Virus record (IMG/VR): IMGVR_UViG_3300009788_000048
Coordinates: 1-45,860 of that record
Origin: a virus
Length of the DNA stretch: 45,860 nucleotides
Direction: 5' to 3' (one strand)
Of the stretch, positions 2,580 through 30,188 are shown in pieces. The translations under genes were made by a program, and so were the position numbers. Each line of letters opens with the position of its first letter. The stretch's first letter is position 1. The notes beneath the pieces were generated by a model. That model ran no database searches. It was not told the DNA's origin and saw only the letters and a list, made by a program, of their open reading frames with translations.

Positions 2580-2619
2580 CCTTATCCACCATTATTTATA
2601 CCTTATCCGCCATTATTTA
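2580..2619. repeat. Two tandem 19-bp repeats after the integrase
   Basis: CCTTATCC(A/G)CCATTATTTA occurs at 2580-2598 and 2601-2619 with one mismatch and a 21-bp period (two helical turns). The second copy touches the last codons of the integrase. The phasing suggests a protein-binding site pair. Confidence 0.55.
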
Positions 2620-3606
2620 AATCCATTGGTCGACAGGGAGCTGATTTACTTTCCACCTGAGGACGAACTGGCGATCGGTATAGAATTGGCTGGTGGTCCT
2701 CGCTGAAGAGTGCTGCAGCAGATCCCGGGCCGAATCGATCGAGCCGATCGTCTGTATGAGCGTAGAGAATGTTTTGCGGAGATCCTGCCGGGTTATGCCC
2801 TGCCGGAACGAATCGAACACTTTGCGGGTATTACGGTCAGCGAATAGCTTTTCCTGATCCGATGGCAGTGAGCTGATATAGGCGGTTAGCAGTGGCGCCA
2901 GTTTGTCGGGCAGCGGTGCTGTTAGCTGCTTGCTTGTCTTAGACGCGACTGACCGGACTGTCAGGCTGTTTAAGTCGAGTTCGTCGATCCTGAGCGAATC
3001 TGTGTCGTTTTTACGGAGTCCGGTGGTTAGTGATATAAGTATCCGGATCCGCCAGGCTTGGGTTGGCGCGCGATCTATGAGCAGGCTGATCTGCTTGTTT
3101 GTCAGGGCCTTGACTATCACGGGTGGGGTTTTGACCTTCTGGAGCGTGATCTGTGCTGTTATGTAGCGACGCTGGGGATGCCGGGTCCAGTTGAGGAAAG
3201 CGGTGAGGCGTCCGATGGTCTTATTGACGGTCCAGGGACCGACCTGTTCGCTGTGATCGAGCAGAAAAGCGTCTATGTGTGCCTGAGCGAGTTTTGCGGT
3301 TGGGATATCCCCTATTGCTGAGATCAGTCGGTTAAGAGCAAGGGAGGCCTCGTACCGGCTGGCGGCGGTGAGGTTGAGCAGTTCATATCTGTTGAGGTAT
3401 TCGTTGCGGGCGGCGGTCAGAGGGACGCTGACCGAGCCGATATATACTTCGCTGTTGATTTGCTGCATGAGTATAGATCTTCTGAGGTCTGCGAGTTTTT
3501 TGGTTTGGAATCTTTCGGTTTTACGTTTTTTCGTGTGAGGGTCGGTCCATCGCAACCACCAACCACTTTTATTAGGTCTTTTATAAGGCTGTCCGAGTGT
3601 TCGCAT
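2617..3606 (-). CDS. int: Tyrosine-type integrase
   Basis: This 329-aa site-specific recombinase would join attP to the host tRNA site. The N-terminus is basic (KRPNKSGWWLRWTD, an AP2/arm-binding type), residues about 65-165 form the SAM-like core-binding domain, and the C-terminal half is catalytic: TTGLRKND gives the first Arg, the Lys loop is near SKTSKQ, RQDLRKTF gives box II, LLQHSS gives the second His and QFYTD the nucleophile Tyr. The box II His is Gln here, a tolerated but less usual variant. The gene starts 67 bp from the candidate attP core and is flanked by repeats that could be arm sites. It is probably separately promoted. Confidence 0.9.
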   Translation of the reverse strand: MRTLGQPYKRPNKSGWWLRWTDPHTKKRKTERFQTKKLADLRRSILMQQINSEVYIGSVSVPLTAARNEYLNRYELLNLTAASRYEASLALNRLISAIGDIPTAKLAQAHIDAFLLDHSEQVGPWTVNKTIGRLTAFLNWTRHPQRRYITAQITLQKVKTPPVIVKALTNKQISLLIDRAPTQAWRIRILISLTTGLRKNDTDSLRIDELDLNSLTVRSVASKTSKQLTAPLPDKLAPLLTAYISSLPSDQEKLFADRNTRKVFDSFRQGITRQDLRKTFSTLIQTIGSIDSARDLLQHSSARTTSQFYTDRQFVLRWKVNQLPVDQWI

Positions 3607-4049: not shown

Positions 4050-5632
4050 TGAGTTTCCACGGTACAGGTGAGCCAGTTTTCACTTAATATTAAAAAGTCA
4101 GTACCATCAACAAAGCCATCTCTGTTCGTATCAGCATTATTATAGGCTCTGTGCTTGCCCCTAATCAGTATACAATCATGACCGGCTATTGGTATTTCGC
4201 GAGCTGCCGAATCGTATAAAATGCCTGTAAGCTCCAGGGTTATTATATCGCCGTCGTCAATATCGCCGGTAGCTTCTATGATCGCCTGGGTCCTAAATTT
4301 CAAGGTAAGATCAAGCAAACCATCCGGGCCGGTACCTACGCAGTTGCAGTCTGCAATATCCGGGGCGGGCGTCGCTACATCTTCGATACTACTTCGCAAG
4401 GGTTCTACGCCGGCAAGCCGGATAGAGGCGGGATCTATCATAGTTACATCAAGATCATTCGATCCTAATATAGCCACTGGTAGCACACCGGAGCTTCTGG
4501 TATTAACCGGATTCGGACAGCTGCCGGGCTTAATATCAAGAGCAACCTGAAACGCAGGCTTCGGAACGATCATAAGCGTAATATTGACGGTATCGCTCAT
4601 ATTGTCATTGTCAACCGTTTTCAAGTGAATTGTGTATTCGTGATTGATAAGAAGCCCAAGTGATTCTAAGTATGAGTAGCTTACTTCAAAAATTGGCCGG
4701 TCATCTCCAGTAGTTTCAAAAACTCCATCGTCATCTAGATCCCACAGGAAGGAAACAATATCGCCGTCAGGATCGCTTGAACCGCTGGCGTCCAGTATGA
4801 GGGAATCGCCGACACGGATAACATAGGGTCCGCCGCTGATATGGGCCTCCGGTGGAAGCGGGATAGGTTCGCAAACGAGAATAATGGCGGCGTTTTCGTA
4901 AATGTAAAAACGGTTGTTAATCGGATCGCCGTTGATTAAAGTGCCCGTGAGTACGCCGGTGAGATCAGTGATAATATCGTTACAGTCGTAATTGAAATTG
5001 TTTCCGTGTATCGTCATAACACTGTTATCTCTAAGATCGAAGATGCCGCCGAAAGTACCGCCAAATATGATAAGCTGACTATTACTATCGAGAGCAAGAT
5101 CGCCACCGACAGTAGCGCTGTCGATAGTGAGGATCGCGTCATGGTGGACCGTTGCAGATAGATCTATCGAAGTATTATCGATGTCAACTATGCTGCTTGA
5201 ATTAACGCGCAAAGACTCTAAAGCTGTGTAGGATATGGTGGAAAAACTATAACTTTCAGACTGGAAATCCTTTATATATCCGCCCGTAATGTCAGCAAAA
5301 TTATATACCTCGAAAAGGCCGTTTGCCACGCCCCCGGACATAGTAACCCAGCTACTGTCCCACGCCCGAAATACGCCAGCTATCCTTCCATCCCAAATAT
5401 TGATCTGACTTGTATCCCAGACGTGTAATTCAGGCAGAACGCTCCCTGTAAGCAAATTCAGTGTTGTTGGTTCATAGCCGGCATTGTTCCATACGTAAAC
5501 CTTATCATTAAGTACAAAATCAATATCATACTCCTGTCCGGAATCGTATATGATCGCACCTAAAAGATCAGGAGAACCGGTGAACAAACCACACAACAGA
5601 ACTGCCACAATAACAATCATTCGTTTTTTCAT
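4046..5632 (-). CDS. Secreted PKD/dockerin-type protein, probable lysogenic conversion gene
   Basis: I chose the ATG at 5632 because it begins a clean Sec signal peptide (MKKRMIVIVAVLLCGLF) behind AAAGGG; an upstream in-frame ATG at 5650 exists. The mature protein (about 500 aa) has repeated beta-strand turns suggestive of a beta-solenoid (residues 20-230), a PKD domain (about 255-355; DASGSSDPDGDIVSFLWDLD), a beta-sandwich segment with ALDIKPGSCPNPVN and GVLPVAILG as in many bacterial exoproteins, and a C-terminal dockerin-like calcium motif (DTNRDGFVDGTDFLIL, then ENWL). Such ends are frequent in planctomycete surface proteins. It is not a virion gene by position: it sits between integrase and regulator and would be expressed from the prophage. 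Substrate or ligand unknown. Confidence 0.75.
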   Translation of the reverse strand: MKKRMIVIVAVLLCGLFTGSPDLLGAIIYDSGQEYDIDFVLNDKVYVWNNAGYEPTTLNLLTGSVLPELHVWDTSQINIWDGRIAGVFRAWDSSWVTMSGGVANGLFEVYNFADITGGYIKDFQSESYSFSTISYTALESLRVNSSSIVDIDNTSIDLSATVHHDAILTIDSATVGGDLALDSNSQLIIFGGTFGGIFDLRDNSVMTIHGNNFNYDCNDIITDLTGVLTGTLINGDPINNRFYIYENAAIILVCEPIPLPPEAHISGGPYVIRVGDSLILDASGSSDPDGDIVSFLWDLDDDGVFETTGDDRPIFEVSYSYLESLGLLINHEYTIHLKTVDNDNMSDTVNITLMIVPKPAFQVALDIKPGSCPNPVNTRSSGVLPVAILGSNDLDVTMIDPASIRLAGVEPLRSSIEDVATPAPDIADCNCVGTGPDGLLDLTLKFRTQAIIEATGDIDDGDIITLELTGILYDSAAREIPIAGHDCILIRGKHRAYNNADTNRDGFVDGTDFLILSENWLTCTVETQ

Positions 5633-6410: not shown

Positions 6411-6444
6411 TAGTTTTTAGTTTTGAGTTTTTAATTTTGAGTTA
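6411..6444 (+). repeat. T-rich heptad repeat 1
   Basis: TAGTTTTTAGTTTTGAG followed by TTTTTAATTTTGAG. First member of a dispersed intergenic family built on AGTTTTT and GGTTTTT words. Confidence 0.7.
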
Positions 6445-6460
6445 CTTGAGGTGAAAAAAA

Positions 6461-8604: not shown

Positions 8605-8640
8605 GAACGCCTGTCCGGCGTTCAGTTTTTAGTTTTTGGT
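8605..8640 (+). terminator. Intrinsic terminator whose U tract is a heptad repeat (repeat 3)
   Basis: A perfect 7-bp stem GAACGCC/GGCGTTC with a 5-nt loop is followed at once by AGTTTTTAGTTTTTGG, a member of the dispersed T-rich family that continues to about 8660. It lies between the small helical protein gene and csrA. Confidence 0.7.
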
Positions 8641-8674
8641 TTATAGTGTTTAGTTGTTTTTGGAAAGGAAGCCC

Positions 8675-8920: not shown

Positions 8921-9816
8921 TTGCATAAGTTGAATTTTCTATCGTTATGTTCCGGTTGCGGTGGTATGGATCTTGGTTTAGAGAGGGCAGGTTTTAAATG
9001 CGTGGGTCAGGTAGAGATAATGAAATTCGCACTCCGTATCTTGAGAAGGCATTGGCCCAGCATCCCGAAATATACGGATGTCTCGACCTTATTGCGTTTG
9101 GATTCCCTTGTCAGGATATATCGCTCGCCAACACGAAAGGCGTTGGCCTTGCGGGCAATAGAAGCGGTATCTTCTTTGAGTGTATGCGAATCGTTAGCTT
9201 ACTTATGCCAACGTGGATTATTATCGAAAACGTCCCCCGATTGCTTTCCAAAAACAAAGGGAGGGATATGGCCATCGTCCTTCAAACGATGGCCGAATGC
9301 GGCTACGGGTGGAGCTACAGAGTTCTTAACAGTAAATATTTCGGCGTGCCCCAGGGACGCAAAAGAATCTTCATTGTCGGACGTTTTGGATCACTCTGTC
9401 CCCCGGAGATACTATTTCAGTCTGAGGGGTATAAAGGGGATGTTCAAGCGAACTCTGGCCCATCACCCAAAAGCAAAGCTCTTTCTACACAATCCAGACA
9501 CGATACCAGCGTTGAAACATTTATCGGTAAAACAATTAAAGCTCAGTGGGGAGTCCACAACGCAATGGAAACAAACGTCGTCGCGAAAACGCTCAATGCC
9601 GACACCAAAGGTCGGGGTTATAACGGATTCATGTGGCAGGAAAATTATTTTGCGGAAATTGACTCCGCCGGAGAAAGAGAGATTGCAGGGTTTTCCAGAG
9701 GGTTGGACACTGCCAGAGGGGCGGTTATCGGAAATGCGGTCTCTGTTCCAGTAGCCAGGCGGATAGGTGAGTGGATTGTGGCTTATGAAGCAAAGCAACT
9801 AAAAACCAAAGACTAA
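8921..9816 (+). pseudogene. C5-cytosine DNA methyltransferase, frameshifted
   Basis: All main motifs are present but divided between two frames. Frame A (TTG start at 8921) has motif I (LSLCSGCGGMDLGLERAGF) and HWPSIPKYTDV; frame B takes over near 9080 with motif IV (GFPCQDIS), motif VI (IIENVPRLL) and VIII (QGRKRIFIVG); frame A returns near 9610 with motif IX (LRKLTPPEKERLQGFPEGW); frame B again from about 9720 with motif X (GNAVSVPVA). Shifts are -1, +1 and -1. Spacing between motifs is short at the first and last junction, which suggests small deletions rather than only read errors. An intact enzyme would methylate cytosine to protect or mark phage DNA; as written it is probably inactive. 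Confidence 0.8.
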
Positions 9817-9832
9817 AAACTAAGGACTAAAC
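9797..9832 (-). repeat. T-rich heptad repeat 4 (inverted)
   Basis: ACTAAAAACCAAAGACTAAA and a further unit lie between the methyltransferase and the GTG of the replication gene, which has no Shine-Dalgarno sequence. Same arrangement as repeat 2. Confidence 0.7.
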
Positions 9833-9835
9833 GCT

Positions 9836-13057: not shown

Positions 13058-13609
13058 ATGAAAAGATCTGAAATCAGGGTTTGGGATAAAGAGCAGGAAT
13101 CGATGTGGTCGGTGGAGTCGATCCATTTCTACAGCGGCACTATCGACGTTTCACGTATAGAGTTTTGTGAGAATCTGGGGAGAAGGGGAAAAGTAAGTAA
13201 TTTCGGGATACCGTTTTCAGATGTTGTTGTAATGAAGTACATCGGCAATCCGGATGGCAACGGACAAAAGATATTCGACGGCGATATAATTGCGGAAAAC
13301 AAAAAGGGTTATGATTATATCCGCGTTGTAGGCTGGCGAAATGAGCACGGTTGTTGGTCGGCGTTCCATAAAGATTCGCCGTGGCAGCAAATTGATGGTG
13401 ATGAGGCAGAGAGCTGCAAAGTCATTGGTAATATAATGGAAGATCCAGATATGGTTCCGTGGCTCAATTATGAAATTGAGAGGATGAGACAAATAGAAGC
13501 AATCAATGAAGCTGCGGGAAAAATAAATGTATGCAAAGTTTGTGGCGAAGAGCAGCGCGGAGTTTTGGTTGCTGGCAAGGCTTCGGCTGACATCGACCCG
13601 GAGGCGTAG
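13058..13609 (+). CDS. YopX family protein with altered C-terminus
   Basis: Residues 1-130 match the YopX phage family: MKRSEIRVWDKEQESMW, MKYIGNPDGNGQKIFDGDII and the beta-barrel strand IRVVGWRNEHGCWSAFH. YopX proteins are common in phage accessory regions and have no settled function. The last 20 residues are encoded by the 134-bp duplicated element, so the native C-terminus seems to have been replaced. A CxxC (CKVCGEE) lies just before that junction. The gene is followed after 79 bases by the hybrid recombinase. Confidence 0.75.
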   Translation: MKRSEIRVWDKEQESMWSVESIHFYSGTIDVSRIEFCENLGRRGKVSNFGIPFSDVVVMKYIGNPDGNGQKIFDGDIIAENKKGYDYIRVVGWRNEHGCWSAFHKDSPWQQIDGDEAESCKVIGNIMEDPDMVPWLNYEIERMRQIEAINEAAGKINVCKVCGEEQRGVLVAGKASADIDPEA

Positions 13610-13681
13610 TTGTCTACGTCGAGGACTCGATGGCAATCGGTAACGCAGTCAGCGGACAAAAGAACCGCTGCGACGGGAAAC
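13548..13681. repeat. 134-bp duplicated element, copy 1
   Basis: Imperfect copy of 18137-18271. It starts in the 3' end of the YopX gene and ends just before the recombinase. It has conserved hairpins: CAGCGG/CCGCTG near the 3' end, CGTAG/CTACG in the middle, and CATCGA (13591-13596) pairing with TCGATG (13627-13632). In the other copy the last pair is CATTGA/TCAATG, a compensatory change. Confidence 0.75.
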
Positions 13682-13688
13682 ATGATAA

Positions 13689-14531
13689 ATGAAAAAGCGA
13701 GCTGGTCGAAAACCGTTCGGGTATTACCGCGATGAAGCTGCGATCGTTGAGATGATCAGGTGTAAGCGCAAGGTTCGCAAGGCCGCCGATGGCAAGCGGA
13801 CCTCACCGTATCGGATAGCGATCGAGCTTAACGAGCAGGGATTTAAGACCCAAACGGGTAAGAAATTCGCTACTCAGACGGTGATCGATATTCTCAAGCG
13901 TATCGAGGGCGATCAGCCGAAGGCGGTCAAGAGGTATGCCAAAAAAGGTCAGCTCGAAGCCGATGATTACCGGACAGCCGACCAGGTCAGGAGCGATCGC
14001 GGCAAGTTGGAAAAATATCCGGCCCTGTTGTGCATTTATGACATTCTGGTAGGGACCGGGATGAGGGCCGGTGAGTTATGTTCCCTTCGGGCAAAGGATA
14101 TTGATGTTAGTAAGGGTCTTATCTCTATCAGGCATGGCAAGAATACACGGAATAAGGTGATTGGTAAGCGAAGGGTGATAATTGCGATGGCGCCAGCGGT
14201 CCTGTTACTGGCGAAACTGATTGAAGGACGCGGTAAACTTGCTCCTGTCATGGTCAATCGGTTCGGGTCAGCTCTAAGTTACGATGCTCTGCTGTATCGT
14301 GTGAAAAAGATAGCCGAGATCATAGGTGTCCCGGCGTTCCACCCGCATACTTTGAGGCATACTTTTGCTGTAGTTTTGTATAATTCCCGCAAAGACCTTT
14401 TATTCGTTGCCAGGCAGTTAGGTCACAGTAACATTAGGACCACTGAAATCTATGCCAAGTGTCTTAACGATAGTATGTTAGAGCAGATGTCGGATTCCAC
14501 GGACACTCTTTTCGGTAAGATAGCGGTTTAG
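13689..14531 (+). CDS. Hybrid recombinase: serine-recombinase-like N-domain, tyrosine catalytic domain
   Basis: The C-terminal 170 residues of this 280-aa protein are a XerC/D-like tyrosine recombinase: TGMRAGELCSL (Arg), HPHTLRHTFA (His-x-x-Arg), LGHSNIRTTEIYAK (His and Tyr). The N-terminal 85 residues do not look like the usual core-binding domain; they resemble the DNA-binding Recombinase domain of large serine recombinases: KPFGYYRDEAAIVEMI, then SPYRIAIELNEQGFKTQTGK and FATQTVIDILKR. The gene follows the 134-bp element and precedes a gap without a large gene. It could resolve multimers, move an accessory segment, or be a second integrase. It lacks a clear Shine-Dalgarno sequence. Confidence 0.75.
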   Translation: MKKRAGRKPFGYYRDEAAIVEMIRCKRKVRKAADGKRTSPYRIAIELNEQGFKTQTGKKFATQTVIDILKRIEGDQPKAVKRYAKKGQLEADDYRTADQVRSDRGKLEKYPALLCIYDILVGTGMRAGELCSLRAKDIDVSKGLISIRHGKNTRNKVIGKRRVIIAMAPAVLLLAKLIEGRGKLAPVMVNRFGSALSYDALLYRVKKIAEIIGVPAFHPHTLRHTFAVVLYNSRKDLLFVARQLGHSNIRTTEIYAKCLNDSMLEQMSDSTDTLFGKIAV

Positions 14532-14899
14532 TTATGTCTGTACTATGTAAGTAAACAGGGAAAGTAGAGTTTAAATAGTTTGGTAGAAAGAATTAAGAGG
14601 CTCTAAAAATTGTTTATTATTTGACCATAAGAATCGGGAAAGATGGTCGGAAGCGACAAATAATTATTTTAATCGTTAGGTGTGGATACGCAGGGTTGAG
14701 TATATAACTGGTTGTGGTAAAAAGATTTAGATAGTGGTGTCGAGTTTATGGGTATTAAAGAGAATTTAAAAAAGCTGGAGTTTTGGCCTGAAAATAGGGG
14801 CATAATTGTTGATTTATTTTAATGAGTATAAATGAGGCTCTGATTAGTCTCTGGTTTTTAGTTTTTGGTTTTTAGTTAAATGTAGAAAGTGAGTGAATT
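14532..14899. other. AT-rich gap after the hybrid recombinase
   Basis: I see no convincing gene. There is a 24-codon frame at 14748-14822 with no good ribosome site, an isolated TTGACC near 14620 without a matching -10, and heptad repeat 5 at the end. The region could hold a target site for the adjacent recombinase. Confidence 0.4.
14853..14877 (+). repeat. T-rich heptad repeat 5
   Basis: GGTTTTTAGTTTTTGG followed by TTTTTAGTT, upstream of the small membrane peptide gene. Confidence 0.75.
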
Positions 14900-15031
14900 A
14901 TGATCAATAGACGTCTGAAATTGTGTTGGGGGAATTTTAACTGGGGGTTTTTGTTTGCTATGCTGGTTGGCTTTGCGACAGTTATTGCGGTGATCGTTGC
15001 AGTCGGGTCTTTGATCAAGGGGATGTTATGA
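14900..15031 (+). CDS. Small membrane peptide, 43 aa
   Basis: An ATG at 14900 opens a frame whose stop overlaps the Dam start (ATGA). The product has a basic/aromatic N-terminus (MINRRLKLCWGNFNWG) and one transmembrane segment (FLFAMLVGFATVIAVIVAVG). The 4-base overlap with dam and the clear membrane segment support it as real. Function unknown. Confidence 0.6.
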   Translation: MINRRLKLCWGNFNWGFLFAMLVGFATVIAVIVAVGSLIKGML

Positions 15032-15912
15032 ATGATATGAAGATCACAGCGATCGCTCCGTGGTACGGGTCAAAGCGGACTCTGGCTCCTCAGATCGTTG
15101 AGCTCATTGGTGATCACAAGAGTTACTGGGAACCTTTCTGTGGTTCGATGGCGGTGTTGTTCGCTAAACCTATATGCTCGATGGAGACGGTTAATGATCT
15201 TCATGGAGAGCTGATCAATCTCGCTAAGGTTGTTCAGGATGTAAAGTTGGGAGAGCAGCTTTACGATAAGCTTTGTCGTACATTATGTGCAGAGCAGTTC
15301 TTTCGCGAATCGAAGGAACGCTGGATCTCCGGCAGTTGTGCTGATGGTGTTCTGGATATAGATAGGGCTTACGATTATTTCGTCGCGAGTTGGATGGGTC
15401 TGAATGGGGTGTCGGGTACCGAGCGGTGTAACTACCAGTTCGCGGTCAGGTGGGTCGATAACGGCGGTCACGGCGCTGCCAGGTGGCGGGCAGTGGTGGG
15501 GTCGATGCCTGCATGGCATAGGAGGTTAAGGAGGGTTTTGATCATATCAAGGGATGCATTCGAAGTGGTTGATAATATTGCTGATGGCGCAGAGGTTGTT
15601 ATATACGTTGATCCACCTTATATAAAAAAAGGCAGTAGGTATATTCATGACTTTAAGGAGGCTGATCATCGCCGGTTGGCTCAGTCGCTTGCGCGGTTCA
15701 AGAAGGCGCGGGTCATTGTCAGTTATTACGATCATCCGGACCTGGCAAAACTCTACGCCGGGTGGGAAAAGATCGTTCCGAAAAAGGGCAGGCAGTCGCT
15801 GAGGAACGCCACGCGAGGTCCTAAGAAAAAACCCGCAGCTGATAGGGTCGAGGTGCTTTTCACTAATTTTAAACCAGAAAAGAAACAGTTGATTATAGAG
15901 AGGTTTTTTTAA
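15028..15912 (+). CDS. dam: DNA N6-adenine methyltransferase (Dam/D12 class)
   Basis: This 294-aa enzyme transfers methyl from SAM to adenine N6 in DNA. WYGSKRTLAPQIVELI and PFCGSMAVLFAKP form the SAM-binding motif I region, and VVIYVDPPYIKKGSRYIHDF holds the catalytic DPPY; the intervening 100 residues are the target recognition part. Size and motif order fit the D12 class. The target sequence cannot be read from the protein. It may protect phage DNA from host restriction, and it is intact, unlike the C5 methyltransferase. Confidence 0.88.
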   Translation: MNDMKITAIAPWYGSKRTLAPQIVELIGDHKSYWEPFCGSMAVLFAKPICSMETVNDLHGELINLAKVVQDVKLGEQLYDKLCRTLCAEQFFRESKERWISGSCADGVLDIDRAYDYFVASWMGLNGVSGTERCNYQFAVRWVDNGGHGAARWRAVVGSMPAWHRRLRRVLIISRDAFEVVDNIADGAEVVIYVDPPYIKKGSRYIHDFKEADHRRLAQSLARFKKARVIVSYYDHPDLAKLYAGWEKIVPKKGRQSLRNATRGPKKKPAADRVEVLFTNFKPEKKQLIIERFF

Positions 15913-15923
15913 GGGGATGTATC

Positions 15924-16433
15924 ATGGCTGATTGTATTATTAAGGCTTATAACGGTAGGCGGGCGGAGATGTTCGGGGATAAGATGACGCCGATCCAGCG
16001 GGCGATATTTATGCGGTCGTTTTGGCTGCATACTGAATGGCAGTTCTCGAAACGGTATGAGAAGGTTTCGTTCTCGGCGGCGATAGGGGAGGGTGCAAGG
16101 TTCAAGGGTATCCAGTATTCGCACGGCTATCGGTGGGACGATGTCATTATTCCGTTAGACGATGAGGCTGAGGACCGTGCGATGGCTGAGGCTAAGCGGC
16201 TTGACGGTAGAGAGTATGACTTCTGGGGTCTGGGTTCGTTCGGCACGAAACTTGAAATTATTAAACCGGACCCCGAAAAGGTGTGGTGTTCAGAGACGAC
16301 GACTATGCTTGCGGTCGCTGCCAAACTTGCTTTCAGGAAAACACTGCTCGATAGAAATCTGCCGATAGAGTTGAGTCCGGAACAGATCGTTCTTATTGCT
16401 CAATGGCATTGGCACGGAAGGAGATCAGGGTAA
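15924..16433 (+). CDS. Permuted papain-like (NlpC/P60 or YiiX-type) enzyme, lysin candidate
   Basis: This 169-aa protein has the order seen in permuted papain-like folds: FKGIQYSHGYRWDDVIIPLD (His), GREYDFWGLGSFG, then PEKVWCSETTTMLAVAA (Cys in WCSE). Such enzymes cleave peptide bonds in peptidoglycan stem peptides or amide bonds in lipids. No other endolysin is visible in the genome, so this may release progeny. It lacks a signal peptide and would depend on a holin such as the 1526 gene. An AAGGGGATG ribosome site precedes the ATG. Confidence 0.6.
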   Translation: MADCIIKAYNGRRAEMFGDKMTPIQRAIFMRSFWLHTEWQFSKRYEKVSFSAAIGEGARFKGIQYSHGYRWDDVIIPLDDEAEDRAMAEAKRLDGREYDFWGLGSFGTKLEIIKPDPEKVWCSETTTMLAVAAKLAFRKTLLDRNLPIELSPEQIVLIAQWHWHGRRSG

Positions 16434-16434
16434 A

Positions 16435-16827
16435 ATGAAAGCATTAAATGTAAAGCAGCCGTGGGCGTGGTTGATCGCATCGGGTAGGAAAAAGATCGAG
16501 ACGCGAACTCGACGCACGAAATATCGAGGGCCTATACTGATCGTAGCCAGTAAGGGTCGGATGACAAAGATAGTCTGTGAAGAGTTTACCAAAAGATTCG
16601 GGACTATGGTTACATTACACTTAAAGTATGGGATGGCTTTATGCAAAGCTAATCTTGTCGATTGCAGGCCAATGACAGCAGACGATGAGAAGCTTGCGTG
16701 CTGTGGGATATATGATGGGGCCTATAGCTGGGTGTTGGAAGATGTCGAGCGGATAGAGCCGTTTGAGGTTAAGGGTCAGTTGGGCATTTATGAAGTGGAT
16801 ATTAAAAAAGAACTTTTAGAATGTTGA
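16435..16827 (+). CDS. ASCH domain protein
   Basis: From the ATG at 16435 (immediately after the previous stop) the 130-aa product matches the ASCH fold: MKALNVKQPWAWLIASGRKK, IETRTRRTKYRGPILIVASK, and a C-terminal WVLEDVERIEPFEVKGQLGI. ASCH proteins bind RNA or modified nucleobases, and some are amidohydrolases. Common in phage accessory regions. AAGGAGATCAGGG upstream serves as ribosome site. Confidence 0.8.
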   Translation: MKALNVKQPWAWLIASGRKKIETRTRRTKYRGPILIVASKGRMTKIVCEEFTKRFGTMVTLHLKYGMALCKANLVDCRPMTADDEKLACCGIYDGAYSWVLEDVERIEPFEVKGQLGIYEVDIKKELLEC

Positions 16828-16850
16828 GTTTTTAGTCTTTGGTGTTGAGT
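16823..16850 (+). repeat. T-rich heptad repeat 6 (diverged)
   Basis: GTTGAGTTTTTAGTCTTTGG followed by TGTTGAG between the ASCH and XRE genes. Confidence 0.6.
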
Positions 16851-16874
16851 GAGCAGGATGGAAACTGATTGTAA

Positions 16875-17108
16875 ATGACAAAAGCGACGATAACCAATTC
16901 GATCAATAAGGATATGACCGGGACGGAGTTGCGGCGGTTGCGTGTACTTGCTAAGCTCAGTACCGAGGCATTAGCCAATCTTATGGCCGGGTGGGGATGG
17001 TATCGTTGGAAGGTACGGGATCTCGAGAAAAAAAAGAAAGAAAAGTTCAGTCTGCATCCGGATGAGATGGTTTCGCTGTTGGCAGCTTTGGAAGCGTCAA
17101 GTTTATAG
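16875..17108 (+). CDS. XRE-like helix-turn-helix protein
   Basis: This 77-aa protein has a Cro/CI-type HTH: MTGTELRRLRVLAKLSTEAL, ANLMAGWGWYRWKVRDLEK, with a lysine patch and a last helix EMVSLLAALEA. The recognition helix is aromatic-rich, which is unusual. It could be Cro-like or an early-late switch factor. An AGGATGGA ribosome site lies upstream. Confidence 0.65.
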   Translation: MTKATITNSINKDMTGTELRRLRVLAKLSTEALANLMAGWGWYRWKVRDLEKKKKEKFSLHPDEMVSLLAALEASSL

Positions 17109-17312
17109 TTTATAGGTGATAGATGATAGATATAATAGCAGTAAGCCGAAATGGAAGGAGGTGGTATCCGGTGGGTCTGGATCCTGGTCGGGTTGTTTGA
17201 CAAGTGAATATAGTATTTAGTTAAACAGAGGATAGCTGGCCGGCGGGTCGACCGGCTTTGCCGGTCAGTTTTTGGTTTATAGTTTTTGGTTTTTAGATGA
17301 AGTGGAATAGCT
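17109..17312. other. Gap with degenerate T/A repeats and a strong but unused Shine-Dalgarno
   Basis: Holds a degenerate heptad-like stretch (17101-17140), an AAGGAGGTGG at 17154-17163 that leads into only a 9-codon frame, and the terminator plus heptad repeat 7 described separately. Confidence 0.45.
17250..17296 (+). terminator. Intrinsic terminator fused to heptad repeat 7
   Basis: A 6-bp stem GACCGG/CCGGTC with loop CTTTG is followed directly by AGTTTTTGGTTTATAG and a second heptad unit. The same stem-plus-heptad arrangement occurs at 8605. Confidence 0.65.
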
Positions 17313-17666
17313 ATGCTGGATCGAAGATCATTTATGAAGATGCTGGGGGTTGGGGCTGTGGTTGGGCCTGGTGTGCTGGCTGGTGGTTCTGGTATAGCCG
17401 TTGATGGTCCGGGTGTGTATCGTAAGGATACGCGGACGATCGGGAACAATGACAACATGGACAGTACCATTATGGCAATCAGGATAGCGATGGCTGAAAA
17501 GATGTCCCTGCCTGGTCCTGTAATGGCTCAACCTAATATGACAGCTAACCAGTTAGAGATTCGGGTTCGTAGGATGTGTTTTGAGGCTGGGATGCCTGCG
17601 GATTGTGTCTTGGGCGGTTATCCGGTCCACTGGAACCCGTCGAAGGTAAATTTGAAGGAGATTTGA
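17313..17666 (+). CDS. Small protein with a twin-arginine (Tat) signal
   Basis: This 117-aa protein begins MLDRRSFMKMLGVGAVVGPG, a classic Tat motif (RRSFMK) followed by a weakly hydrophobic Gly/Ala/Val region, so it should be exported folded. The mature part has no recognised domain; it includes MAIRIAMAEKM and NQLEIRVRRMCFEAGMPADC with two cysteines. It leads a three-gene unit with 1-base gaps to a membrane protein and a zinc-ribbon-like protein. It follows a terminator, so it may have its own promoter and be expressed in the lysogen. Confidence 0.65.
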   Translation: MLDRRSFMKMLGVGAVVGPGVLAGGSGIAVDGPGVYRKDTRTIGNNDNMDSTIMAIRIAMAEKMSLPGPVMAQPNMTANQLEIRVRRMCFEAGMPADCVLGGYPVHWNPSKVNLKEI

Positions 17667-17667
17667 T

Positions 17668-17913
17668 ATGAAGCGAGTACTAAAGCAGATGGCTGGAATT
17701 ATTTGTATGGGTTTAGCAATGTGGGTTGCTATGTGCGTTCTGGCTATTTTGTTTGATTGGGTTGGCGCGGCGATTTCCAGTCACGAAAGGGTTATTGTAG
17801 ATATGGATGATATTATTGCTCTGTGTGCGGGTTGGGGTATATTTGTTGGGTTGGGAACCGCGCTAGCATTAAGCGACGAAGGCATGTATCCAAAAGAAGA
17901 AAAGGAGATTTGA
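17668..17913 (+). CDS. Small two-helix membrane protein
   Basis: This 81-aa protein has two transmembrane segments (QMAGIICMGLAMWVAMCVLA and ALCAGWGIFVGLGTALAL) separated by an acidic loop. AAGGAGATTTGAT before the ATG is repeated almost exactly before the next gene. It probably works with the Tat-signal protein. No family recognised. Confidence 0.6.
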   Translation: MKRVLKQMAGIICMGLAMWVAMCVLAILFDWVGAAISSHERVIVDMDDIIALCAGWGIFVGLGTALALSDEGMYPKEEKEI

Positions 17914-17914
17914 T

Positions 17915-18232
17915 ATGTTTTGTGGTTATTGTGGCAATGAGGTAGATGAGGTTGGTGATCTGGGTGGACATCGCCGGTCCTACAGGATGAGTAATCGGTT
18001 TCTGTTTGAAATACATATTGTTCCTAAGAATAGCGGTCTCTGCAGAGGGTGTGCGTCGGGACTTTTTACGAGCATCAATAAATCAAAAGCTCTCTGGTAT
18101 GAAACGGTGTTTGCGTTGAGTGGCAATAACGAAAGTAAGAGCAGCGAGGGGCTTTGTTTGCTGGCAAGGCTTTGGTTGGCATTGACCCGGAGGCGTAGTA
18201 GTCTACGTCGAGGACTCAATGGCAAGCAGTAA
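17915..18232 (+). CDS. Zinc-ribbon-like protein with a C-terminus from the duplicated element
   Basis: The first about 70 residues carry CGYCGNE and CRGCASG, a likely four-Cys zinc site. The last about 30 residues (LCLLARLWLALTRRRSSLRR and on) are encoded by the 134-bp element in a different frame from the YopX gene, so they are probably not native. The native stop seems to have been displaced by the element. Function unknown. Confidence 0.55.
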   Translation: MFCGYCGNEVDEVGDLGGHRRSYRMSNRFLFEIHIVPKNSGLCRGCASGLFTSINKSKALWYETVFALSGNNESKSSEGLCLLARLWLALTRRRSSLRRGLNGKQ

Positions 18233-18271
18233 CGCAGTCCAGCGGGCAAAGAAACCGCTGCGTGGGGAAAC
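18137..18271. repeat. 134-bp duplicated element, copy 2
   Basis: Imperfect copy of 13548-13681 with roughly fifteen to twenty differences. The CAGCGG/CCGCTG and CGTAG/CTACG stems are unchanged, with differences in their loops, and the third stem is CATTGA (18180-18185) with TCAATG (18216-18221). Confidence 0.75.
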
Positions 18272-18287
18272 AGGGGGCATATAAAAT

Positions 18288-21283: not shown

Positions 21284-21455
21284 GCCGGTCGCGCCTCAGC
21301 CGACCGCTGCAGGGCCCGAGGTTCGGGCTGCTGCCGCCGACGCCCGCGAGAGGAACAGGCTCCGGGTCGGTCGGTCCAGGGCGGACAGAACGACAAGGGG
21401 TGTTCTTAGTCCTCTGACGATATCGAACGTATCTTTGAAAGATACCTTAGGGTAG
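21240..21455 (+). CDS. Conserved podovirus small protein before the connector
   Basis: From the ATG at 21240 the 71-aa product starts MSFRKPKSPNIPEVKPVAPQ, a Pro-rich stretch, then an Ala/Arg helix (RAAAADARERNRLRVGRSRA) and RGVLSPLTI. Short proteins of this make-up (Pro-rich, then an A/R-rich helix with GR and L-S/T) commonly precede head-tail connector genes in T7-like and other podoviruses. Function unknown. Confidence 0.55.
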   Translation: MSFRKPKSPNIPEVKPVAPQPTAAGPEVRAAAADARERNRLRVGRSRADRTTRGVLSPLTISNVSLKDTLG

Positions 21456-21485
21456 TTTTTAGTTTTTAATTTTGATGTTTTAGTT
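21453..21485 (+). repeat. T-rich heptad repeat 8
   Basis: TAGTTTTTAGTTTTTAATTT and following TTGATGTTTTAG, between the previous gene and the connector gene; it includes the previous stop codon. Confidence 0.7.
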
Positions 21486-21502
21486 AAAAAGGAAAGCAGT
21501 GG

Positions 21503-24353: not shown

Positions 24354-25233
24354 AAACGAAGGCAATTCAATGGTATCTGAGACTGGTGAGTTTACCCAGG
24401 GGTTTCGGGATCACGTTGCTAAAGAGCATCCCGATAGTAAAGCGTTTCAAGATATTAAGACTGTAACAGGCCTTGCAAAAGCATACCACGATACGAAAAT
24501 AACAAACGGGACCATGACAACAGAACGTGATACAGCTAATACAGCGCGTGATACTGCTAACACGGCTCTGGCGGCGGCTAACGCGAAGATGGAGGGCGGG
24601 GTGTTTGCGTTGACTGCTGATGCTGACGACGATGCTAAGGCTGCTCATGCTACTAAGCTGGCGGCTCTTAACGGTTGTGACGGTAAGGCTGAGAGTTATA
24701 CGCTGCCGCGGATCGAAGGGGTTGAGTATAACGATGCGGAGAAGGCGGTTGAAACGGCGTATATCGCATCCTGTATCGAGAAGGGTATCAGTCCGGCTGC
24801 AGCTGCTCATAATGTAGAGTTCCATAACGCTCAGCAGATGGCTTTGATCGGGTTGGAACAGGAGGCTTTCAAGGCGGAGGCTGCTAAGTTCGATACTGAT
24901 TTCACCGGCGATGCTAAGCCTGTTGCGCTGCGTAACGTCTATAAGGCGCTGGAGCATTTCGCAAGCGATGAACTTAAGGCGGACATGAAGGCTGCGAATC
25001 TATTCGATTCGACGGATCTCGCCGCGTGGAATAAGTTGGTCCCGATCGAGACGATCAGGATCTTCGAGAAGGTAGCGTCTATGACGATGTCCGGCGGTGA
25101 GCTGCTCGGCGGTACCGTAAAACCGAATATGGACGGCGTTCATCCTCAGAGTGAGTACGCAAAGATAGCAGCGGCGTACCCGAATAATCCTGAGTATCTT
25201 GTGGGTAAGAGTAAAGAGGCGCCAGTAAGTTAG
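24346..25233 (+). CDS. Capsid scaffold protein candidate
   Basis: This 295-aa protein has the composition of phage scaffolds: helical, Ala/Glu/Asp/Lys-rich, with a tandem DTANTARDTANTALAAANAK coiled-coil segment near residue 70 and a short C-terminal tail. FRDHVAKEHPDSKAFQDIKT near the N-terminus resembles the start of T7-like assembly proteins. Position directly before the capsid genes fits. An internal ATG at 24370 is an alternative start. Confidence 0.65.
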   Translation: MNENEGNSMVSETGEFTQGFRDHVAKEHPDSKAFQDIKTVTGLAKAYHDTKITNGTMTTERDTANTARDTANTALAAANAKMEGGVFALTADADDDAKAAHATKLAALNGCDGKAESYTLPRIEGVEYNDAEKAVETAYIASCIEKGISPAAAAHNVEFHNAQQMALIGLEQEAFKAEAAKFDTDFTGDAKPVALRNVYKALEHFASDELKADMKAANLFDSTDLAAWNKLVPIETIRIFEKVASMTMSGGELLGGTVKPNMDGVHPQSEYAKIAAAYPNNPEYLVGKSKEAPVS

Positions 25234-25254
25234 TTTATAGTTTTTGGTTTATAG
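25231..25254 (+). repeat. T-rich heptad repeat 9
   Basis: TAGTTTATAGTTTTTGG and TTTATAG directly between the scaffold stop and the next start. Confidence 0.7.
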
Positions 25255-25719
25255 ATGACAGGTAAAATGATGGTTAAGATCGTTGGTGATAATTCGGGAT
25301 CTGTAGCGTCAGCTGTTAAAAAGTTATTCGACAAACTGCCAGGCTGGCTGCAGATGCCGGTAATTGGTAAGGCTAAGAGTCCTGAGACGACGGAAATCCC
25401 CGATCGGCTCAGTCAGCAGGATATTATGAAGGTGTTCTATCTGCTGCTGAAACAGGCAGGCGGTAAGTGTGCTATGTTTCATCAGACGATAGATAACGTC
25501 GAGGACGGTTTCGTTAAGGATTTTGTGTTCACTCAAGAGAAGTCGCTTAACGGGCTCGGGCCCGGCTGGGTTATTTCGCTTAAGTCATGTGAAGCCGACC
25601 GGGTCACGCGGATCCGTAAGAGGTCCAGGAAGCGGTCGGCTAAACGAATGGCCGATAGGCAAAATAAAATAAAAATTAAATGCGGGTTACCGGAAACGGC
25701 CCCGACAAAAAGTGAATAA
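25255..25719 (+). CDS. Unknown protein between scaffold and capsid
   Basis: The 154-aa product (or 150 aa from the ATG at 25267, which follows AGGTAAA) has an amphipathic N-terminus (VASAVKKLFDKLPGWLQMPV), a beta-containing middle (FVKDFVFTQEK, GPGWVISLK) and a strongly basic end (RIRKRSRKRSAKRM). The basic tail could bind DNA or capsid. No family recognised. Confidence 0.5.
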   Translation: MTGKMMVKIVGDNSGSVASAVKKLFDKLPGWLQMPVIGKAKSPETTEIPDRLSQQDIMKVFYLLLKQAGGKCAMFHQTIDNVEDGFVKDFVFTQEKSLNGLGPGWVISLKSCEADRVTRIRKRSRKRSAKRMADRQNKIKIKCGLPETAPTKSE

Positions 25720-27504: not shown

Positions 27505-27545
27505 ATCGTTGAAACGATTTAATGTGTTTTTTTAAGGGCAAGATC

Positions 27546-28850
27546 ATGAAAAAGTTTTTCATTTTACTAATGTTAGTAGCGGTTACGGCCTGCTGCTATA
27601 GTGCAACTAACTACAACTTAGGCGCGATAAACAGCCGGATACCAAGCGACTGGTTTGCCAATGGGGGGATAAAGGATTTTGGGACCAATGCTGTGAGGGA
27701 ATTGCAGGTTCTCATCGCGTTCAGTTCGAATCCCGGTACCGGTAAGGTGTGGTATATCGATTCGAACGTGGTTAACGAAGGCGACGGTCAGGGCGGATGG
27801 CTAAACGCAACGGATACGGTTAATGAGGTGGTTGTGTTATCCGATGACGATGGCGGTGACGATCGGGGCGATGTGTTCATGGTAGCACCAGATCACACAG
27901 AGAGCGGGATAATTGCCGATCTGGTGGATATTACGGTCTCTGGCAGTACGTTAGTGCATTTAGGTAATGGAACCAATCAAGGGGCCTATACGTTCGCTCA
28001 TGCCGATACGACGTTCGCTATTGGCGCTCCGAATGTGAGGGTTATAGGTGGGCGATATATCGCGGGAATCACTTCGATCACTATGGGTATTAGTCTCGAA
28101 GCCGCTGCCGATAACTGTGTGTTCGATGGGATGGTATTTCCGAAACCGACGACTAATAGCTGGGAATTTCTCGATACATTCGATATCGCCGATGGGGCCA
28201 ATAATCCTACGTTCGTCAATATAGTTGGCTATAACGATGAAGCCGGGGCAGCTCCGGCCCATTTCATCGATGCTGGTAACGGAACAGCCGGGCCGGTTGG
28301 TTTGACGGTTGTAAATTGCCTGATCAAAGGTGACTTTTCGGTATCGGCTATATGGTCGGATGAGCCGTGCGATGAGGCCTATATAGCCTTCAATTCGATC
28401 ACGAACCATCAAACCGGTGCGCATTGTATCGAGTTTACCGATACAGGTACCGGGTCCATCGAGTGGAACAACTGTTTCGGCGATACGGAAGGGTCGATCA
28501 TCGATCCGGGTTCGATGGCCGAATACGGGAACATTAAGAGTATAGCGGTCGATACGCCCGGATATCCGGGTTGGACCCTGCAAAGTAGTCTCGATCATTT
28601 GCTGCAGTTAGACGGCGCTACGCAAATATATCCGGAGAACGCCGTCGATGACAGTATCTTAGCGAAGATCCTTACTAAAAGCGATCCAGCTAATATATCG
28701 GATTATGACAATACGGTCCATTCGTTAGAGGCCATTGGCGATGTGTCCGCTAAGAGTGTTACGAAGGTCCTTAGCGGGATAACCAACGGTCTCCAGGATC
28801 TGTTCGTAGTTGCCGGCGGGCCGGTTAGGATCATCGAACTGTCGGGATAG
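27546..28850 (+). CDS. Beta-helix protein with lipoprotein signal (N-terminal part of a frameshifted gene)
   Basis: From the ATG at 27546 (behind AAGGG) the protein begins MKKFFILLMLVAVTAC, a lipoprotein signal with lipobox VTAC (Cys16). After GKVWYIDSNVVNEGDGQGGW there is a long series of short strands (VRVIGGRYIAGITSITMG, DNCVFDGMVF, LTVVNCLIKGDF, EAYIAFNSITNHQTG), a right-handed beta-helix as in spikes and polysaccharide-binding phage proteins. The stop comes right after IIELSG; the family-like sequence continues in the -1 frame. It is the first tail-region gene. A lipid-anchored or exported virion protein would be unusual. Confidence 0.65.
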   Translation: MKKFFILLMLVAVTACCYSATNYNLGAINSRIPSDWFANGGIKDFGTNAVRELQVLIAFSSNPGTGKVWYIDSNVVNEGDGQGGWLNATDTVNEVVVLSDDDGGDDRGDVFMVAPDHTESGIIADLVDITVSGSTLVHLGNGTNQGAYTFAHADTTFAIGAPNVRVIGGRYIAGITSITMGISLEAAADNCVFDGMVFPKPTTNSWEFLDTFDIADGANNPTFVNIVGYNDEAGAAPAHFIDAGNGTAGPVGLTVVNCLIKGDFSVSAIWSDEPCDEAYIAFNSITNHQTGAHCIEFTDTGTGSIEWNNCFGDTEGSIIDPGSMAEYGNIKSIAVDTPGYPGWTLQSSLDHLLQLDGATQIYPENAVDDSILAKILTKSDPANISDYDNTVHSLEAIGDVSAKSVTKVLSGITNGLQDLFVVAGGPVRIIELSG

Positions 28851-29215: not shown

Positions 29216-29252
29216 TGTTCGATGGTTAATGGGTTCTTTTAAGGGGCAAATC

Positions 29253-30188
29253 ATGAAAAAGTTAAAAATCCAATTTGGTGTGTTTATGGTGTTTTTTGTT
29301 TGTTTTGTGTGGTGGATGACAGGTATGTCGCTGGACGCCCGAGACGCCAATGCCGTGCCGGTTGATTCTTATCATTCGAGCTGGCATCTGGTGCGCGAAA
29401 CGGCTGATGAGGATGGCGCTACGTTTGCGGCCGTCTACGCTCTGGCCGGGATCGAGAGTAACTTCGCCAATAAGGATACTTCGAGCGTTGCCAATGGCGG
29501 GGCGTTCAGGATATCCTCTCGAAACGTAGCCGGTCCCGATGAGGGGTGGTCAGCCGGCCAGACATGGGAGCTTATGTTCTGCGGTGAGAATCGTAATAAC
29601 GTCGACGATACGTTCAGTTTCAACGTCGTCGGCTGGAACAAGATCAACGGTCCCTTACAGGTCATCTGCGAGGGCGATTGCGTATTAGGTACCCAAAGCG
29701 TTGTAGTGTTCCCGGACGGCGGCGATGCTTTAGGTTCTCTGGTGTCGCTTACCGGGGTTGCTTACGATCATACGGGTGGGACCCAGGATCAATATTTCAC
29801 AAAAGACGGGATAGGGGTTGGCGTAGTTGCCGGGATGCAGGCTTACGTTACAGGTACCAATATTACTTCCGGGTTCTCTCAGGTTACGGTCGTTACCGAT
29901 GCGAACAATATCAAGATAACAGTGACCGCAACGGATGACAATACCGATTCGACGGTTCAGATCGCTCCTTCTATGTGGGCCGATACGATCACGCTGGATG
30001 AGGCTACAAAATGGCCGAAGTTCCAGGGCAACCTTGCCGGCGTCGGGGTCTATAACTCAGGCGATAATGAGATTGCTATCCTGCAGATCCAGAATCCTCC
30101 CGAATATATGCAGGTGGTTGTATACGATGCCGATGGCGCTACCGCCGAAGAGGCGGGTAATATAACTGTTTACGGTCGAAGAAAATAA
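29253..30188 (+). CDS. Virion-region protein with signal sequence, unknown
   Basis: From the ATG at 29253 (behind AAGGGG) the 311-aa protein starts MKKLKIQFGVFMVFFVCFVW, a signal sequence with likely cleavage after DANA. The mature part is beta-rich (FRISSRNVAG, WELMFCGENRNNVDDTFSFN, SGFSQVTVVTDANNIKITVT, PPEYMQVVVYDADG), similar in style to tail or capsid accessory proteins. The first 36 bp around the start closely repeat those of the beta-helix gene. It is followed by the tail adaptor gene. Family not recognised. Confidence 0.55.
   Translation: MKKLKIQFGVFMVFFVCFVWWMTGMSLDARDANAVPVDSYHSSWHLVRETADEDGATFAAVYALAGIESNFANKDTSSVANGGAFRISSRNVAGPDEGWSAGQTWELMFCGENRNNVDDTFSFNVVGWNKINGPLQVICEGDCVLGTQSVVVFPDGGDALGSLVSLTGVAYDHTGGTQDQYFTKDGIGVGVVAGMQAYVTGTNITSGFSQVTVVTDANNIKITVTATDDNTDSTVQIAPSMWADTITLDEATKWPKFQGNLAGVGVYNSGDNEIAILQIQNPPEYMQVVVYDADGATAEEAGNITVYGRRK

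Follow-up and report, generated by a model that had tools for sequence, protein, structure and literature searches.

Two copies of a palindromic repeat in a phage genome: a probable MITE-like mobile element with an ERIC-like fold

The repeat and the genes it enters

The window analysed here is the whole 45,860-nucleotide stretch of IMG/VR virus record IMGVR_UViG_3300009788_000048. It has a direct terminal repeat of 123 bp and encodes a head-tail connector as well as a capsid protein of the GP7 type. The window carries two copies of a repeated element, both on the + strand: copy 1 at 13548-13681, a long imperfect palindrome with the outer arm GCAGCG...CGCTGC, and copy 2 at 18137-18271, a 135-bp rod. 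The two copies match without gaps at 88% identity between 13548-13650 and 18137-18239; with a single gap the alignment extends to about 134 bp (about 13548-13682 vs. 18137-18272, 87% identity, E-value 2.4e-42). The duplication had been described at this length in a first-pass annotation made from the sequence alone, and it is confirmed. Neither sequence comparison nor a covariance model (R1, see below) revealed a third copy in the window.

Each copy enters the 3' end of a gene. The open reading frame (ORF) at 13058-13609(+) has its final ca. 20 codons and its stop codon inside copy 1, and the ORF at 17915-18232(+) has its final ca. 31 codons and its stop codon inside copy 2. Each ORF reads the element in a frame of its own, as had been noted before. 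The first belongs to the YopX family, as proposed in the first-pass annotation (Pfam match over residues 7-131 of 183, E-value 5e-18). The second, annotated there as a zinc-ribbon protein, is zinc-ribbon-like by eye and has no Pfam or PHROG match. Because the phage proteins have almost no close viral relatives, neither the host nor the synteny of the phage could be used in the analysis.

A single rod with two internal loops

On the + strand, both copies adopt the same fold, a single rod, with energies of -52.1 kcal/mol for copy 1 and -58.8 kcal/mol for copy 2 (z-scores -2.8 and -4.7), while the folds of the - strand are much weaker (-37.7 and -41.3 kcal/mol). The consensus obtained with RNAalifold from the two copies has about 41 pairs and is closed by GCAGCG/CGCTGC; it takes the place of the two hairpins that had been assumed. 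Three pairs show compensatory double changes. One of them, CATCGA/TCGATG replaced by CATTGA/TCAATG (13594-13629 vs. 18183-18218), was already recognised in the first-pass annotation and proved to be real, and two more were found (13584-13639 vs. 18173-18228 and 13563-13661 vs. 18152-18251).

The rod holds two conserved internal loops, loop A (CAAGGC/AACGCAG) and loop B (CCGGAGGCG/CGTCGAGGA). In copy 1 (all + strand), the 5' side of loop A (CAAGGC, near-invariant across families) lies at 13576-13581 and its 3' side (AACGCAG) at 13642-13648. The 5' side of the inner arm (13582-13596, 15 nt), which varies in sequence while its pairing is kept, leads to loop B (5' side CCCGGA at 13597-13602, opposite GAGG at 13621-13624) and to the apical hairpin GGCGTAG-TTGT-CTACGTC (13603-13620), which has a conserved G-U pair. 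The corresponding features of copy 2, also on the + strand, are loop A at 18165-18170 (CAAGGC) and 18231-18237 (AACGCAG), the 5' side of loop B at 18186-18191 (CCCGGA), and the apical hairpin GGCGTAG-TAGT-CTACGTC at 18192-18209.

Three covariance models (R1, R2, and R3) were used, the E-values of which are rough as calibration was shortened. Both window copies are in the training set of R1. R2 was built on an alignment (A6) of sequences from Desulfobulbia and the two phages only, without any gammaproteobacterial sequence. R3 was trained mainly on Gammaproteobacteria and without the window copies. The core of copy 1 (13571-13654, +) scores 88.0 bits with R1 (E-value 2e-22), 72.4 bits with R2, and 55.7 bits with R3 (E-value 3e-13); for the core of copy 2 (18160-18244, +) the values are 83.0 bits (5.2e-21), 66.5 bits, and 46.6 bits (1.1e-10).

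Relatives in phages and bacteria

Relatives of the element were detected neither by strict and exact patterns nor by blastn against phages, plasmids, and IMG/VR. No Rfam 15 family matched the element at the gathering score, the matches obtained being a neighbouring 5S rRNA, tRNA, and cobalamin riboswitch, and a permissive threshold yielded chance matches only. A gapped pattern on both halves of the inner loop gave about 118 matches, mostly by chance, among them a locus from Desulfobulbaceae Ww282 (L061) which has the same loops and different yet complementary stems. With a refined pattern, a second phage contig was found (L138; IMGVR_UViG_3300037424_002862). It carries two diverged copies (742-880 and 5420-5560), both antisense to genes and one of them upstream of a likely capsid gene. 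Most pattern matches in the genome and viral collections turned out, on visual inspection and with the models, to be chance matches to coding sequence.

A class-wide search in Desulfobulbia identified multi-copy elements in three genomes (G018, G161, and G001) and a single one in a fourth (G019). Matches to R1 at E≤1 number 62, 34, 17, and 15 in G018, G161, G001, and G019, respectively, and two in the record of the second phage. With R2, matches at E≤1e-5 were obtained in 14 of 246 Planctomycetota genomes and, at E≤1e-6, in 37 of 398 Pseudomonadota genomes. Six of 50 genomes from a mixed set also had R2 matches, including one spirochaete and one Alistipes (Bacteroidota); copy numbers in this set are 26 in the gammaproteobacterium Co_bin.66 and 34 in the deltaproteobacterium GWB2_55_19 (G847). 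The counts from these large searches are lower bounds because few candidates were scored per genome, and single near-threshold matches are uncertain while multi-copy ones are not. In a control set of other viral loci (592 kb), no match at E≤0.1 was obtained. The window and the second phage contig are the only viral contigs known to carry the element. In one Planctomycetota genome (L292:601-1055, contig C201 of G616), three elements are arranged in tandem with a spacing of 183-184 bp.

Covariation of the stems

When seven diverged copies are aligned with MAFFT, 87.7% of the cells are paired and 19 of 29 pairs show double changes. The covariation score of 0.517 compares with 0.200 ± 0.034 for shuffled alignments (reached in none of 500) and with at most 0.18 for slid registers. 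The 5' side of the inner arm is 15 nt long in every copy of this set. Conserved letters occur in both internal loops and in the short flanking helices (CAAGGC/AACGCAG, and CCGGA/GAGG with the adjoining G-U pair). When 50 sequences from several phyla are aligned, 88.7% of the cells are paired, 27 of 29 pairs are doubly changed, and the score rises to 0.733 (shuffled 0.192, 0 of 500), an alignment which was fitted to the model and is hence biased towards it. The stems covary strongly while the internal loops stay fixed, which is strong support for the structure across phyla. The first-pass annotation had considered that unpaired stem changes in further copies would speak against a structured element; the outcome favours structure.

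Farther out, many Planctomycetota copies have a third internal loop that is conserved (5' GTAGCGAG, 3' CGCAGTAG; flanks of L277-L283, L265, L268, and L286-L289). It is missing from the shorter phage copies.

Strand asymmetry

Mismatches within the arms differ between the strands. Counted on the loop-bearing strand, G-U exceeds A-C by 51:18 in the inner arms. In the outer arms, G-T exceeds A-C by 110:54 (41 vs. 15 when counted per copy, p = 7e-4) and G-A exceeds C-T by 144:40 (57 vs. 10 per copy, p = 4e-9). The outer arms lie outside the model, the copies are not fully independent, and further loops account for part of the G-A excess. The asymmetry in the outer arms suggests that selection acts on one of the strands in its folded, single-stranded form. 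Since the orientation to neighbouring genes is unbiased (see below), RNA and single-stranded DNA are not distinguishable on this basis; RNA is favoured because of the conserved G-U pair.

Mobility and genomic placement

The copies form families in which different terminal inverted repeats surround the same core, and several of the families occur within one genome. Examples of the terminal inverted repeats are GAGCCTTTTGCAAAAC, AAAATTAGGATTTTTGTTC, GATGGCTAAGCAAAAAG, TAGCCCGCATTTCTCAC, AGGAGCCTGTCGGAGAACTC, GAGCCTATCCGAAAAA, and CCCGGATGATTCATGAG. In the GAGCCTTTTGCAAAAC family (141 bp, genomes G161 and G001), six of eight copies are flanked by exact target duplications of 4 bp, which vary in sequence, where 0.75 would be expected. 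In the GAGCCTATCC family of genome G603, a 3-bp TAA/TTA duplication flanks 17 of 23 copies (9.6 expected). The other families tested have no clear target duplication. An empty site was also found: one G161 element has no counterpart at the orthologous intergenic site of G001. At a second orthologous site the element is kept in both genomes, and a hand count on the alignment gives three compensated and two broken pairs. These dispersed relatives and the covariation bear out the earlier suggestion that the repeat is a structured RNA or a small mobile element.

No autonomous parent insertion sequence (IS) with the same ends was found at the places examined in G603 and in G161/G001. G603 also contains many internally deleted copies of 51-143 bp (L297-L312). 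The deletions take part of the rod, while both ends and mostly also the TAA/TTA duplication are kept.

Of 106 elements, 83 are intergenic, and convergent gene pairs outnumber divergent ones by 25:7 as host sites, counts which are based on crude ORF-based calling. Between tandem genes, orientation is unbiased (13 sense vs. 18 antisense).

Relation to ERIC

The enterobacterial repetitive intergenic consensus (ERIC) is a known miniature inverted-repeat transposable element (MITE) with a strong RNA fold. It has been used in bacterial typing for decades, and its origin and role are unsettled. The gammaproteobacterial copies resembled ERIC, and the models were compared with the ERIC of E. coli and with plasmid-borne copies from Pantoea, Enterobacter, Salmonella, and Klebsiella. 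R2 detected those from Pantoea (29.6 bits, E-value 4.6e-6), Salmonella (25.2 bits, 5.8e-5), and Enterobacter (18.1 bits, 0.0034). The R2 matches coincide with the ERIC position and are confined to one strand, despite the palindromic sequence. With R3, which like R2 was built without ERIC, the E-values are 1.4e-7 for Pantoea, 2.5e-6 for Salmonella, and 2.2e-5 for Enterobacter. Judged by these scores, the window element is ERIC-like and shares a superfamily with ERIC without being ERIC itself. This kinship, like the single rod and the conserved internal loops, goes beyond what the first-pass annotation had described.

Interpretation and alternatives

The window copies are short, non-coding, and bounded by terminal inverted repeats, as MITEs are. 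We consider it likely, with a probability of about 0.85, that both are phage-borne, non-autonomous mobile elements of the MITE-like kind which belong to a very wide ERIC-like superfamily.

Several observations weigh against this assignment. Neither a target duplication nor a transposase is evident at the two window copies or at those of the second phage, and the window pair could be one insertion that was later duplicated within the phage. The ERIC copies of E. coli and Klebsiella score just 12-14 bits with R3 (E-values 0.02-0.07, not significant), which is about the score of the opposite strand of a true member (14.7 bits for the minus strand of L396). In view of these weak scores, the link to ERIC relies on the copies from Pantoea, Salmonella, and Enterobacter. 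The window element has no BLAST similarity to the plasmid records in which ERICs are present, which is why it is classified as ERIC-like and not as ERIC.

As a MITE-like element, the repeat would encode no protein. Its outer arms and the inner 15-bp arm would be free in sequence as long as they pair, and loops A and B, both rich in purines, would be kept. At the DNA level, it would be moved in trans by transposases which recognise its ends. For the relatives, such movement is shown by target duplications and the empty site, and the phage copies probably arose in the same manner, by transposition from a host. Elements would persist mainly in intergenic positions and at gene 3' ends. If transcribed together with the surrounding genes, which we infer, the loop-bearing strand would fold into a rod at mRNA ends, the rod itself being shown by the covariation and the strand-asymmetric mismatches. 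ERIC at gene 3' ends can destabilise the upstream mRNA in an orientation-dependent manner (PMC2229807, PMC10969869). By analogy, the rod would alter how the upstream message is processed at its 3' end or how stable it is. The insertions into the phage would also have given two genes new C-termini.

Beyond this, we tentatively propose, at somewhat less than even odds, that the rod core with its two loops is an independent RNA (or single-stranded DNA) module which is older than its carriers. It may have been joined repeatedly to unrelated IS ends and so have ridden different transposases across phyla and into phages. Its persistence would be explained by a specific bacterial factor which reads the two loops, and ERIC would represent only the branch of the module found in enterobacteria.

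The element might instead be a cis-acting structured RNA of the phage, a processing or transcription-control site which was duplicated in the phage, kept for its function, and is not mobile. The far better fold of the + strand, the mismatch asymmetry in the inner and outer arms, the sense orientation of both window copies to the surrounding genes, and the occurrence of two copies in each of two phages would fit such a role. It is unlikely, however, because the relatives are dispersed, multi-copy, and target-duplicating in bacterial chromosomes, because both copies of the second phage are antisense to genes, and because orientation between tandem genes is unbiased.

We regard it as similarly improbable that the core acts as a single-stranded DNA hairpin, read by a transposase or at a replication fork, and not as RNA. 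Strand-asymmetric mismatches fit single-stranded DNA equally well, and the missing bias towards sense orientation is also in line with it. However, Y1 (HUH) transposases were not found in the copy-rich genomes G654, G710, and G847, and none of 12 Y1 loci carries the element. The target duplications of two families suggest a DDE-type mechanism acting on double-stranded ends, with which a single-stranded DNA role of the core is still compatible.

That the copies are att-like recombination sites of the adjacent tyrosine recombinase (13689-14531) is very doubtful: the end of copy 1 and the start of the recombinase gene are 8 bp apart and the repeats flank a 4.5-kb segment, but the same element is a dispersed intergenic repeat in chromosomes, the 12% difference between the copies is unlike att duplicates, and the one viral relative of the recombinase that was found (L003) is without a copy. 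The coding alternative raised in the first-pass annotation, a decayed fragment in the PGGVVVYVEDSMA frame, can practically be dismissed, since this frame, open in both window copies and with several synonymous differences, has stops in 27 of 44 family core sequences (25 and 27 in the other two frames) and the differences track base pairing.

The shared fixed core would join ERIC with dispersed elements in Planctomycetota, Desulfobacterota, Pseudomonas, and phages in one wide superfamily. This superfamily carries a searchable covariance signature, and the binding partners of the two fixed loops become testable. Judging from the phage copies, phages may be one of the routes by which such elements pass between hosts.

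Other features of the window

The phage encodes two different tyrosine recombinases (2617-3606(-) and 13689-14531(+)). The latter also has a weak N-terminal match to the Pfam family Recombinase and starts 8 bp after copy 1. A short, degenerate, AT-rich intergenic repeat with AGTTTTTAGTTTTTGGTTT units, often spaced by 14 bp and present in both orientations, occurs at 6412-6446, 8610-8658, 9796-9833(-), 14846-14880, 17253-17303, 21454-21488, and 25232-25268. A 38-bp repeat with 87% identity (27519-27556 and 29226-29263) extends from upstream into the starts of two late genes and is possibly a shared promoter or ribosome site.

Comparison with known repeats

Two types of element were considered and rejected. 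The template/variable-repeat pair of a diversity-generating retroelement does not apply, as differences between the copies are not specific to adenines and none of the proteins scanned was recognised as a reverse transcriptase. For integron attC sites, inspection did not reveal R/L boxes.

Rickettsia palindromic elements are likewise palindromic insertions which alter proteins. They insert in frame and the frame is conserved, whereas the element is read in different frames, and these hold stops. The REP/BIME/REPIN repeats associated with RAYT (GTAG- and CGTC-tagged) are also dispersed palindromes at gene 3' ends, and G-T pairing in REP-type repeats suggests their use as RNA (PMC3733652). They differ in having units of 20-40 bp with an unpaired GTAG or CGTC tag, and the GTAG type is tied to Y1 transposases. 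A RAYT/REP assignment was rejected, as the element shows neither the tag nor, in the three genomes and 12 Y1 loci examined, a link to Y1.

Other bacterial MITEs (Chunjie of Geobacter, NEMIS/Correia, YPAL, QMITE, and the Thiomargarita hupL/dsrA MITEs) are short, non-coding, bounded by terminal inverted repeats, transcribed into rod-like RNAs, and located mostly at gene ends, a likeness to the window element by description and not by loop sequence. Chunjie and QMITE are candidate members of the superfamily.

The closest counterpart is ERIC (also IRU, RU-1, or MITEEc1, and MITEPlu5 in Photorhabdus). In the open-access literature searched, which has partial coverage, no paper ties ERIC to elements of other phyla. 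Like the window element, ERIC is an intergenic imperfect palindrome (ca. 127 bp) which folds into one long RNA rod with an AAGGC/AACGCAG-type loop and an inner loop of the tandem-GA type (GGAG/TGA). The window copies differ from it by their ends and arms and by being phage-borne. An ERIC-related MITE of Photorhabdus is mobile, with TA duplications and IS630-like ends (PMC6267812); the relatives of the window element have 3-bp or 4-bp target duplications, and the flanks of the window copies have no TA direct repeat. ERIC is located in Enterobacteriaceae and Vibrionaceae (PMC10969869), and the host range of the superfamily is far wider.

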